Shown piece by piece: positions 6,441 through 25,321 of a stretch of DNA of 25,321 nt. Made by a program: the position numbers and the translations under genes. Position 1 is the first letter of the stretch, and each line of letters opens with the position of its first letter. The notes beneath the pieces were generated by a model, which was given only the letters and a program-made list of their open reading frames with translations, was not told the DNA's origin and did not search any database. Source of the DNA: a virus; IMG/VR virus record IMGVR_UViG_3300002231_000792, positions 1,080-26,400 of that record; one strand, given 5' to 3'.

Positions 6441-7934
6441 ATGGCAGTATCAACAGCATTTAGTCCTTCGAGAGTTGCGCGGGGCGTAGCAATTGAGACT
6501 GAATTTAATGCAACCGTGCCAAGTTCAGCGGTTTACAGGCCGATCAAGATCGCCTTGGTTGGAGTTGGACAGGCAAGCGAATCATACGCATTTACGCCTT
6601 TTGACGTGACGAAACTTTCGGACGTTTCGGACGTTGTGGGATACAAAAACCCACTTTACCAAGCGGCTAAAATGCTTAAACCCCCAACGGCCCTAGGGAT
6701 TGGCGATATTCCTTTGACCGTTTTCCCGGTGGAAGTTACGGCAAGCGGTGCACAATCGGTTGGATCCGTTGCACTGGTTGGAACGTTGGGAACCGGGTTG
6801 ACTGAGGTACACACGATCAAAATGGGTAACCATGCGGCACAAGTAACGCTTGTTGGCGGGGAAGCTAACACGGATATGATCGCAAAATTCGTTGCGGCGG
6901 CGGCGGCGATCCCCGATTACCCAGCGGCGGTAACGGACGGAACAACCGTTGCAACTTGTACCATCGGATGGGAAGGCGCAACCGGGGACGAATGCGACAT
7001 TACAATCGAATCCCCGTCTACAAGTGCGTTGACTTGGACAATCGTACAGCCAACGGGCGGCGCGGGAACCCTTGACGTAGATGATGCCCTAGCTCAATTT
7101 GGGAACGTTTGGTATTCTCACGTTATCAATTGCGATTCAGCGGACACAGCCACGTACAACAAGTATAGCGCATTCAATGAGCTGAGATGGGCGGCGGCTG
7201 TGTACAAGCCTTTCAAGTGCTATTCAGGCACCAATGAAACAAGCGTTGTTACGGCGGCGGCGATCACGGATGCGAGGAAATCAGACAGAACAAACAGTCT
7301 AAAACCGGCACCGGGTTCCCTTGACATGCCTTGGGAGATTGCGGCTCGACAGGTTCAGGCAATGGTTATCGTTGCGAACGTCAACGCCCCCACTGATTAC
7401 GGTTCTGAAAAAGTCACCCTACTTGACGACGGAGGGGAAGAGAACCAATGGACCGAAGACGATGGGGAGTACCAATATGCAGTTTCCAGGGGCCTTTCGA
7501 CAACCAAAATCAAATCCAACGTTTTGAGAATTGCGGATTCGATTATGATGTATCACCCGGATGGTGAGGATCCGCCGGCGTATCAGTACGATGTGGACAT
7601 CGAAAAGCTTTGCGCGATGATTTACAACATTGATCTCATTTTCAATAATGACAGTGTTGACGGATCGCCATTGCCCCCCGATGCGGACGTGATCACGAAC
7701 CCGAACGCACGGAAACCACGGACCTATAAAGCAGCATTATTCTCGCTCTATAAAACGATGTCTGAAGACGCTATTATTGCCGATCTGGACTATGCAAAAG
7801 AAAATACAGTTGTTGAAATCAGCGGATCCAACCCGAAACGGCTGGATGTTCTGGCAGTCTACAAACTTGCCGGAAATGCGAACGTGATTTCAATAACCCA
7901 ACAATTCAGCTTCTACTTTGGGGGTGCAGCATGA
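6441..7934 (+). CDS. Contractile tail sheath protein, Mu gpL type
   Basis: The 497-residue product has the length and architecture of Mu-type sheaths. An N-terminal part ('SSAVYRPIKIALVGVG', 'FTPFDVTKLSDVSDVVGYKNPLYQAAKMLKP') is followed by a beta-rich insertion at about 95-205 that probably protrudes outward. A conserved C-terminal part includes 'YQYAVSRGLSTTKI', 'IADSIMMYHP' and the closing 'VLAVYKLAGNANVISITQQF'. Sheath subunits stack around the tube and contract to drive it through the cell envelope. Presence of this gene makes the phage a myovirus. AAAGGA precedes the ATG. The tube gene overlaps its stop. Confidence 0.88.
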   Translation: MAVSTAFSPSRVARGVAIETEFNATVPSSAVYRPIKIALVGVGQASESYAFTPFDVTKLSDVSDVVGYKNPLYQAAKMLKPPTALGIGDIPLTVFPVEVTASGAQSVGSVALVGTLGTGLTEVHTIKMGNHAAQVTLVGGEANTDMIAKFVAAAAAIPDYPAAVTDGTTVATCTIGWEGATGDECDITIESPSTSALTWTIVQPTGGAGTLDVDDALAQFGNVWYSHVINCDSADTATYNKYSAFNELRWAAAVYKPFKCYSGTNETSVVTAAAITDARKSDRTNSLKPAPGSLDMPWEIAARQVQAMVIVANVNAPTDYGSEKVTLLDDGGEENQWTEDDGEYQYAVSRGLSTTKIKSNVLRIADSIMMYHPDGEDPPAYQYDVDIEKLCAMIYNIDLIFNNDSVDGSPLPPDADVITNPNARKPRTYKAALFSLYKTMSEDAIIADLDYAKENTVVEISGSNPKRLDVLAVYKLAGNANVISITQQFSFYFGGAA

Positions 7935-8320
7935 ACGCTATTGGAAGACCACTTGAAAGAGTGGAAATAAACGGGCGCGAATTCCAATGTGTTGGGGACG
8001 CCGCCGGGACAAGGGATTTGGGCGGATTTTCAAACGAGTATCAATCTAACGGAAACCCGGGAACGGGCCGAATGATTATGACCCCCAAGGGATGGAGTGT
8101 TCCGAGTCAAGGGCTTGAAATTGATGACGCCGCCGAGGACCAGGAATACATTCAAGCCCTTGCGGACAGCGGTGCAAAAAACGTTGATTTCGTATTCAAT
8201 TACGGGCAAGGCGTTTCCTATCAGGCAACCGGCGGATTGGTTGATACTTTGGAATTTGACCCGATGACCGGAACAATGCCAACGGCCTTCGGGGGACCGG
8301 GCAAAATGACAAAACTGTAG
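7931..8320 (+). CDS. Tail tube protein, Mu gpM type
   Basis: This 129-residue protein directly follows the sheath gene with an ATGA overlap, as expected for Mu/P2-type tube genes. It starts 'MNAIGRPLERVEINGREF', has a central 'GRMIMTPKGWSVPSQGLEIDDAAEDQEYIQ' segment, and ends with beta strands ('FNYGQGVSYQATGGLVDTLEFDPMTGTM'). Tube subunits form stacked hexameric rings through which DNA passes. No signal or membrane segment is seen. Confidence 0.82.
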   Translation: MNAIGRPLERVEINGREFQCVGDAAGTRDLGGFSNEYQSNGNPGTGRMIMTPKGWSVPSQGLEIDDAAEDQEYIQALADSGAKNVDFVFNYGQGVSYQATGGLVDTLEFDPMTGTMPTAFGGPGKMTKL

Positions 8321-8340
8321 TCAGTCAAGGGGCTTAATTT

Positions 8341-8403
8341 ATGCCGCGTCGTTTAACATGCCCCGTTAAACTGGGTTCAATCCCGAGACGCGGCCTCGTA
8401 TAA
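8341..8403 (+). CDS. Candidate 20-residue leader peptide between tube and chaperone genes
   Basis: An ATG at 8341 is preceded by AAGGGG at 8327-8332 with an 8-base spacer. It opens a 20-codon frame ending at TAA 8401-8403. The product begins 'MPRRLTCPV' and is very basic. Its stop runs directly into a second AAGGGG (8402-8407), the ribosome site of the chaperone gene at 8414. The ORF coincides almost exactly with a strong RNA fold, so ribosomes translating it would melt the fold. It could be a regulatory leader or a chance ORF. Too short to judge by codon bias. Confidence 0.35.
   Translation: MPRRLTCPVKLGSIPRRGLV
8343..8395 (+). ncRNA. tRNA-like cloverleaf lacking a D arm
   Basis: The outer stem pairs GCCGCGT (8343-8349) with ACGCGGC (8388-8394), seven perfect pairs extendable to eight by C8350-G8387. 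The second stem pairs GTTTAAC (8351-8357) with GTTAAAC (8365-8371), seven perfect pairs closing a 7-base loop ATGCCCC. In tRNA numbering that loop has T33 and anticodon GCC (glycine). The third arm contains GGTTCAATCC (8374-8383), a perfect match to the T-loop (B-box) consensus, though its stem has one G-G mismatch. There is no D arm, only about one variable-loop base, and no encoded CCA. The fold is clear; whether it is a degenerate tRNA, a tRNA mimic or an mRNA control element is open. Confidence 0.55.
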
Positions 8404-8413
8404 GGGGCAAGCT
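8402..8413 (+). promoter_or_regulatory. Ribosome site of the chaperone gene, complementary to the tRNA-like loop
   Basis: AAGGGG (8402-8407) is the Shine-Dalgarno sequence for the ATG at 8414. The six bases GGGGCA (8404-8409) are exactly complementary to TGCCCC (8359-8364) in the loop of the tRNA-like fold, so a pseudoknot could hide the ribosome site. The upstream GGGGC (8329-8333), part of the leader ORF's ribosome site, can compete for five of the same loop bases. Confidence 0.4.
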
Positions 8414-8851
8414 ATGGACGAAAACAGTATCAAGATTGTGGAAAACAAAACGACCGTTACCGAAGAGATCGCGGAACAGGATTTTGAACGCATGTTAAAA
8501 GCGGCCCGCGTAAAGTGGGATTTGTATCGCCAGATCAGCGGAACCCGGGACGCGGACAACGACAAGGCGCTTATCATTTCTGAAATTATGGACGGCCGGA
8601 TCTCCGTTAATGAATCCGGATTTCCAACGGTCCATACAGAAAGCGAGATCCAACCGGAAATTAAGATTTTCAGACGCTCTACAAGGGCCGACAAGCTGAT
8701 GATCGACCGGTGCAAAGAAGGTCACAACGTACAGGCCCAGGACGCTGTTATGGGGGTTTTTCTGAAGGTTGCCCCAACGGTGCTACAGAAACTTGACGAC
8801 GTTGACTACAGAAACGTGGAGGTGCTTTGGTCGCTTTTTCTGGGATACTGA
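8414..8851 (+). CDS. Tail assembly chaperone, short (G-like) form
   Basis: The 145-residue product lies between tube and tape-measure genes, the invariable site of tail chaperones. It starts with an acidic helix ('MDENSIKIVENKTTVTEEIA'). In the C-terminal half it has a 'RSTRADKLMIDRC' segment and 'VAPTVLQKLDDVDYRNVEVLW', typical of this group, where a late 'L..lD..Dy..v' helix closes the protein. These proteins coat the tape measure during tail assembly and are absent from the virion. The reading frame stops at 8851, four codons after a TTTTT run where a long form can be made. Confidence 0.72.
   Translation: MDENSIKIVENKTTVTEEIAEQDFERMLKAARVKWDLYRQISGTRDADNDKALIISEIMDGRISVNESGFPTVHTESEIQPEIKIFRRSTRADKLMIDRCKEGHNVQAQDAVMGVFLKVAPTVLQKLDDVDYRNVEVLWSLFLGY
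8834..8840 (+). promoter_or_regulatory. Probable programmed frameshift site (CTTTTTC)
   Basis: Upstream codons are read TCG CTT TTT CTG. A -2 slip lets the Phe tRNA on TTT (8837-8839) re-pair perfectly with TTT (8835-8837). A +1 slip lets it pair with TTC (8838-8840), its preferred codon. Either leads into the frame of the long chaperone form. Tail chaperone frameshifts are -1 in lambda and P2 and have been reported as -2 in Mu, so a -2/+1 event suits a Mu-type tail. A one-base sequencing error in the T5 run would look identical. Confidence 0.5.
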
Positions 8852-9089
8852 GATCGAATCCCCTTTACTTGTCCGGTATGGGGAAAACACGAAAGCGGAA
8901 CCGGACAGGAAAACAGGGGAGCGTATGCACACCCGTTGGAGAGTTTACCGCGAAATGTTGCGACACATAACCAGAATTTACCCCGGATTGCCAGATCCCC
9001 GGTCCATGGACTTGGAGGAAATCGAATTTTGGTATGACGGGATAAGAGCTGAAATAATGGATTCTACGAAACCGAAGTCAAATGCCTAG
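8838..9089 (+). CDS. Tail assembly chaperone, frameshift extension (T-like part)
   Basis: This frame has no good start of its own. Joined to the short chaperone at 8834-8840 it adds 83-84 residues beginning 'FWDTEIESPLLVRYGENTK' and ending 'GIRAEIMDSTKPKSNA' at 9089. The segment 'RIYPGLPDPRSMDLEEIEFWYDG' resembles the tape-measure-binding extension of P2 E' and lambda T-type proteins, with a Pro followed by an amphipathic helix ending in an aromatic pair. The stop overlaps the tape-measure start at 9082, as is usual for T-type extensions. Confidence 0.65.
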   Translation, partial: FWDTEIESPLLVRYGENTKAEPDRKTGERMHTRWRVYREMLRHITRIYPGLPDPRSMDLEEIEFWYDGIRAEIMDSTKPKSNA

Positions 9090-24908: not shown

Positions 24909-25321
24909 AAATAAATAAATACGGAAAATCAAAAAACTGGAGAGAAATTAAATCAAGACTGATTCAAGCCGGCGCAACATTCAAAAGGGGGAAATGGTCA
25001 TGTGATGGAGATCTGAACTTGGGGCGTCTTGGGCTTGAATCACCGCCACCAATAAAACATGTTGGTGGCTCTCTCTACCTGCGTAACGTCAAGGAGATAC
25101 CCAAGGGCTTCAACCCAACTGTTGGTGGCTCTCTCGACCTGCGTAACGTCAAGGAGATACCCAAGGGCTTCAACCCAACTGTTGGTGGCTATCTCGACCT
25201 GCGTAACGTCAAGGAGATACCCAAGGGCTTCAACCCAACTGTTGGTGACTCTCTCTACCTGAGTAACGTCAAGGAGATACCCAAGGGCTTCAACCCAACT
25301 GTTGGTGACTATCTCGACCTG
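24905..25321 (+). CDS. Leucine-rich-repeat protein, 3' truncated by the window
   Basis: ATG 24905 follows TTGGAG with an 8-base gap. The first 50 residues form a charged N-terminus ('KYGKSKNWREIKSRLIQAG') and a first irregular repeat ('GDLNLGRLGLESPPP'). From about residue 53 come 20-residue units of the type VGG(S/Y)L(Y/D)L(R/S)NVKEIPKGFNPT; four complete and one partial unit lie before the end. The 'L.L.N...IP..' core is that of short bacterial-type LRRs, which fold into a solenoid and usually bind proteins. Similar 'IP.GFNPTVGG.L.L' repeats occur in other phage genomes. The role is unknown. Confidence 0.8.
   Translation, partial: MKINKYGKSKNWREIKSRLIQAGATFKRGKWSCDGDLNLGRLGLESPPPIKHVGGSLYLRNVKEIPKGFNPTVGGSLDLRNVKEIPKGFNPTVGGYLDLRNVKEIPKGFNPTVGDSLYLSNVKEIPKGFNPTVGDYLDL
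25061..25321 (+). repeat. Tandem 60-base repeats encoding LRR units
   Basis: Units lie at 25061-25120, 25121-25180, 25181-25240 and 25241-25300, with a partial unit from 25301. Differences are confined to four positions per unit (GGC/GAC, TCT/TAT, TAC/GAC, CGT/AGT), all in the first 24 bases; the remaining 36 bases are identical in all four complete units. The array continues beyond the window. Confidence 0.95.

Follow-up and report, generated by a model that had tools for sequence, protein, structure and literature searches.

What is a compact, stably paired structure doing in the short gap between two tail genes of a virus, and which of the two genes does it serve? The locus lies in a 25,321-nucleotide stretch of DNA (the window) that belongs to a 32-kb virus record, and the preliminary description read it, at 8343-8395, as a tRNA cloverleaf devoid of the D arm, leaving the choice between a tRNA relic, a tRNA mimic and an mRNA control element. 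Comparison with related phages argues for the last of these: with a probability of about 0.8, the structure would be a cis-acting pseudoknot in the tail operon mRNA that sequesters a Shine-Dalgarno (SD) sequence, restrains translation of the tail assembly chaperone and is probably switchable.

The structure in the window and its relatives

The stem-loops are indeed present at this site and recur at the same place in relatives, and the pairing exceeds the chance expectation, as had been asserted: the site folds with an energy of -25.1 kcal/mol (z -4.7), and all 200 shuffled versions fold less well. The proportions differ somewhat from those originally proposed. Of the two stems, each described as having seven pairs, the inner hairpin (P2) does consist of 7 bp, around a 7-nt loop, whereas the outer stem (P1) has 8 bp; and, although the stems occupy the reported interval, the complete element is larger, spanning approximately 8327-8413 and including two matches to the P2 loop, at 8404-8409 and 8327-8333 (Table 1). 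The tail tube gene and a tail-assembly-chaperone-like gene flank the 93-nt gap in which it lies; a homologue of the latter gene, in Acinetobacter phage Scuro, carries the annotation of tail assembly chaperone, and the same family is also next after the element in relatives. An ORF at 8769-9089, immediately upstream of the tape measure gene, overlaps the chaperone 3' end in another frame and is possibly a frameshift product of the chaperone (G/GT-like).

Table 1. Features of the element and its flanking genes in the window
Feature	Coordinates	Strand	Basis or remark
Tail tube protein gene	7931..8320	+	phrog_4699 tail tube, E 1.6e-20; upstream neighbour of the element
Motif A, AAGGGGC, SD-like copy 5' of P1	8327..8333	+	Sequence and placement in relatives
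P1 5' strand, GCCGCGTC	8343..8350	+	Fold; P1 pairs doubly compensated in relatives
P2 5' strand, GTTTAAC	8351..8357	+	Fold; stems in relatives
P2 loop, ATGCCCC, putative anti-SD (motif B)	8358..8364	+	Loop:SD match and covariation in relatives
P2 3' strand, GTTAAAC	8365..8371	+	Fold; stems in relatives
P3 hairpin, TGGG-TTCAAT-CCCG, originally read as a T-arm	8372..8385	+	Fold; in most relatives
P1 3' strand, GACGCGGC	8387..8394	+	Fold; compensatory changes in relatives
Motif A', GGGGCA, overlapping the chaperone-gene SD (AAGGGG)	8404..8409	+	Sequence, loop:SD match, covariation
Tail-assembly-chaperone-like gene, proposed target	8414..8851	+	phrog_4648

Homologues about 40% identical to the tube protein of the window are present in phages of Vibrio, Shewanella, Oceanospirillum, Pseudoalteromonas, Aeromonas and Acinetobacter. 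As sole queries against viral contigs, the tube, chaperone and tape-measure proteins of the window retrieved no useful relatives, and a profile (A1) built from the tube homologues was required; it found 206 tube relatives, of which 80, on metagenomic viral contigs, were kept for analysis, and it also led to two MAG contigs. One locus, L103, was rejected as a relative, its tail operon being unrelated. The tube-to-chaperone gap measures about 75-125 nt in most relatives, and most such gaps have the same layout, namely, an outer stem, a hairpin with an exposed loop, usually a third hairpin, the return strand, an AU-rich linker, the SD and the ATG. Sequence comparison thus reveals a common fold, with P1, P2 and usually P3 at the same place in the operon, in more than 50 related phage loci; cultured phages with the element include VP16T, 1.009.O, SFCi1, PD0307 and Scuro.

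A covariance model (R1) was made from an alignment of 31 sequences (A2) that excludes the window. At an E-value of 2e-4 or better, it matches 54 loci; every match is on the coding strand, and nearly all extend to the start codon. With default filters, R1 misses the window site; with filters off, 8340-8416 is the top match on both strands of the whole 25-kb window (16.8 bits, E 4.3e-4), with an alignment that extends from P1 to the ATG. A second match in the window, at 24965-25002, was set aside, being only 38 nt long and not showing the full layout. Membership of the window in the element family is well supported by the top R1 match, the shared operon position and the match between loop and SD; as the longer P2, the 6-nt P3 loop and the 16.8-bit score indicate, the window is a divergent member.

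At least in some relatives, the element appears to be dispensable. Loci L042, L044 and L045 lack it and keep a single AGGGT SD, with flanks that match those of L031, which carries the element, at 92% and 87%; in a second near-identical pair with and without the element, L077 versus L076, the element-less form likewise keeps one SD. Such near-identical relatives imply that the element can be lost, and recombination between A and A' is a possible route; the element-less forms may also represent assembly collapse of a hairpin. An enlarged and different version of the structure is found at L097:1882-2013, where TTGAAACCC upstream matches GGGTTTCAA at the SD.

Pairing of the hairpin loop with the ribosome-binding site

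Across the relatives, the P2 loop has a sequence complementary to the chaperone-gene SD, which lies outside the interval first described. In the window, TGCCCC (8359-8364) in the loop matches motif A' (shuffle P 0.011 for the window alone), and, at the other start sites tested there, loop:SD matches do not exceed 4 bp. Examples from the relatives are loop TCAGCCCT and SD AGGGCTGA in VP16T, GTCCTG and CAGGAC in PD0307, TACCCTAT and ATAGGGTG in L027, GACCCCCA and TGGGGGTT in L079, and GCCACCCTAT and ATAGGGTGGT in L102. With stems that, in most loci, were found by folding without the use of the SD (twelve were marked by hand), the longest Watson-Crick match between loop and SD averages 6.72 bp over 54 loci, against 4.69 bp when loops are paired with the SDs of other loci (the maximum of 2000 permutations is 5.22) and 3.28 bp with shuffled SD regions. 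For nine loci that share no 5-mer in their pairing cores, the permutation P is 5e-5; given the kinship that remains among the rows, these permutation figures are guides rather than exact probabilities.

The alignment shows the same constraint column by column. In A2, 90.7% of the cells are paired, compared with 45-49% when the partners are slid by 1-3 columns, and 18 of the 22 pairs have changes on both sides, including all 8 pairs of P1 and 5 of the 7 pairs of the loop:SD helix. Compensating changes, the absence of which had been set in advance as a refutation of the original proposal, are therefore abundant, but they fit a loop:SD pseudoknot and not a cloverleaf, and it is the option of an mRNA control element that gains from the covariation of the loop with the SD. 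The SD stands 2-10 nt before the start codon, and the paired nucleotides include its core (AGG/GGG). Two features by which SD-sequestering cis-regulatory RNAs are recognized are accordingly found here: conserved pairing of leader and SD with compensatory change and, judging from the model matches and the SD spacing, a fixed position before the regulated start codon. Masking of the SD by the P2 loop is the best-supported reading of the element because the pairing covers the SD core at this distance from the start.

Under this reading, P1 and the P2 hairpin would present the anti-SD loop (B), whose pairing with the chaperone SD (A') would create a loop:single-strand pseudoknot that blocks 30S binding. 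A single mRNA encodes both the chaperone and the tube protein, although far less of the former is needed for tail assembly, and the likely purpose, we infer, would be to keep the chaperone, required in small amounts, far below the tube protein, required in hundreds of copies. The element may act as a fixed brake, as a co-transcriptional timer operating via motif A, or as a protein operator.

The upstream SD-like copy and the gene served

Just before P1, most loci have a further SD-like sequence, motif A, that is likewise complementary to the P2 loop; in the window, its GGGGC (8329-8333) can pair with GCCCC of the loop, and it lies 9 nt from P1. The match of motif A to the loop averages 5.19 bp, compared with 4.23 bp in permutations (maximum 4.67), and, among nine distinct cores, P is 1e-4 for Watson-Crick pairs and 0.011 with G-U pairs included. 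In 27 of 42 loci, motif A lies 3-6 nt before P1, where uniform random placement gives a mean of 11.6 and a maximum of 22 in 5000 trials, whereas its distance to the tube stop codon varies widely, from -2 to 34 nt. This constrained distance to P1, along with the variable distance to the stop codon, suggests that motif A is part of the structure. For the same reason, coupling through ribosomes that terminate at the tube stop was rejected.

The loop match of motif A and its preferred distance from P1 suggest that A and A' compete for the P2 loop. The mean energy is -10.2 kcal/mol for B:A' and -7.7 kcal/mol for A:B, with B:A' the stronger in 34 of 53 loci and the weaker in 4. In prefix folding of 45 loci, the A:B hairpin is predicted for 37 as soon as the loop has been made, for 21 at the stage preceding the P1 return strand and for 8 in the full leader, a trend that counts as supporting evidence only, since the Vienna program used does not model pseudoknots and P2 cannot yet form at the first stage. 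The putative sequence of events would be as follows. In transcripts that read through from the tube gene, motif A, a few nucleotides before P1, would occupy B; A:B would form before P1 and A' are transcribed, leaving the SD open for a while; and, in the final fold, the usually stronger B:A' would close it. Generalized to the family, this would amount to a two-state switch of tailed phages in which a single anti-SD loop chooses between the true SD and a conserved SD decoy 5' of the structure, so that read-through transcripts pass a translatable window before the chaperone SD closes and the tube:chaperone ratio is set without a protein or ligand. We put this family-wide version forward tentatively, at somewhat short of even odds. 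The switch is less certain than the masking of the SD because not all loci have a clear motif A; it is weak or absent in L005-type loci (CAGG), L036, L101 and L017-L020.

Five Vibrio phage loci (L017-L020 and L071) indicate which gene the element serves. Directly after the tube gene, they contain small reverse-strand genes and a terminator-like hairpin, AAACCCCTCGATTGAGGGGTTT, and the R1 match, remote from the tube gene, immediately precedes whichever gene comes first downstream. In L017-L019, that gene encodes the chaperone; L020 and L071 have a small ORF ahead of the chaperone gene, and there the masked SD is that of the small ORF. As judged from this placement, the element is attached to the downstream gene and not to the tube gene. 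Motif A is absent from these loci by eye, and a conserved promoter-like sequence, TTGTTT-17-TATACT, seen by eye as well, ends just before P1; we suggest that it is the promoter in the Vibrio phages with inserted genes, and a promoter scanner gave it no score. The site after the tube gene in these phages is a hotspot for extra genes.

Alternative readings, precedents and implications

Among the alternatives, one to which we give a minority share of the probability, and which we consider doubtful, is that the P1/P2/P3 shape serves as an autogenous operator, in the style of T4 gp32 or S15, on which bound tube or chaperone protein stabilizes the closed state. The shape is conserved and the unpaired nucleotides mostly are not, and feedback would be a natural fit for control of the chaperone dose. 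Yet, the alignment shows no obvious recognition sequence of conserved unpaired nucleotides, neither the tube nor the chaperone protein is known to bind RNA, and P3 is missing in VP16-type phages. The precedents are the pseudoknot operators of T4 gene 32 and of Escherichia coli rpsO, encoding S15, the latter located in the mRNA leader and termed a translational operator (PMC3014915). The gene 32 pseudoknot is, like the present element, a structure in phage mRNA 5' of the start codon that is linked to translation control, but it lies 67 nt upstream, nucleates gp32 binding, does not contain the SD and has no SD-like copy described. The rpsO operator, similarly a pseudoknot in a leader, differs in its fold, its requirement for S15 and its host ribosomal gene; we know of no decoy copy there.

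Activation of translation by the pseudoknot, instead of repression, is improbable. Loop:leader pairings are not always repressive, as illustrated by ColIb-P9 repZ, where pairing of the loop activates translation; here, however, the SD core itself is paired, only a few nucleotides before the start, such that pairing and 16S binding would be mutually exclusive, and it is repression that we infer. Still less probable is an intrinsic terminator or attenuator that lowers transcription past the tube gene: P1 is GC-rich, and a run of five T follows it within 12 nt in 11 of 54 loci, but the run is missing in most loci, the window included, a scan of the window finds no terminator-like site, and both the covariation of loop and SD and the upstream copy would be left unexplained. 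We attach equally little probability to protection of the 3' end of the tube mRNA or guidance of RNase processing, with the loop:SD match as a secondary feature; although the element sits between a high-level and a low-level gene, it accompanies the downstream gene where insertions follow the tube gene, and the SD pairing is under its own constraint.

The reading as a D-armless tRNA, tRNA relic or tRNA mimic is largely refuted, and we give it hardly any credence. The window does have a cloverleaf-like layout, with an acceptor-like stem, a loop arm, a T-arm-like hairpin and a T-loop motif, but, unlike a tRNA (RF00005), it lacks the D arm, ARAGORN finds 0 tRNA genes in the window, and Rfam gives no match to its element at the gathering threshold or at E 10. 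The TTCRA T-loop motif is found only in the window and is absent from the parsed relatives, where the P3 loop has 4 nt in 29 of 40 loci, P3 is absent in 5 of 44, including the VP16-type phages, and P2 mostly has 3-4 bp (7 bp in the window) rather than the 5 bp of an anticodon stem; nor would a tRNA require a loop that co-varies with an SD. CCA or ACCA directly after the 3' end of P1 occurs in 17 of 54 relatives (for example, L035, L037 and L081) and is not general. One distant relative has a true tRNA-Met (CAT) with encoded CCA in its tube-chaperone gap (L041:1972-2046), which we regard as a coincidence. A leader peptide was considered as well: a 20-aa ORF at 8341-8403 (MPRRLTCPVKLGSIPRRGLV), preceded by an SD-like motif, runs through the element to a TAA just before the chaperone SD; it was rejected because, on reading by eye, the ATG is missing in many relatives, and L050 and L089 have an immediate stop.

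For an SD-masking pseudoknot, the closest precedents are the operators of T4 gene 32 and rpsO discussed above and the metastable leaders of the MS2 maturation gene, hok and aapA, which have been grouped as metastable regulators (PMC6733600). In the latter, as proposed here, the SD is masked in the final fold and transient structures compete during synthesis, but no single loop is common to the true SD and an SD copy, and the sequences and genes are unrelated. The SD also lies within a pseudoknot helix in the SAM-II and preQ1-II riboswitches, from which the present element differs in that it has no Rfam match and no apparent conserved unpaired ligand-like core, the unpaired columns of A2 being mostly variable as judged by eye. 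A search of 19 relatives against Rfam 15 yielded no match except the tRNA of L041, and a literature search, which covered open-access papers, found no description of the element; it is, apparently, undescribed and absent from Rfam 15.

The known means of setting the chaperone dose is programmed frameshifting within the chaperone gene. If the proposed reading is true, an SD-masking pseudoknot would constitute a second, earlier control point, located before that gene, and the decoy SD would make the element a compact natural RNA with two competing pseudoknots. The presence of the element in cultured phages renders these possibilities directly testable.
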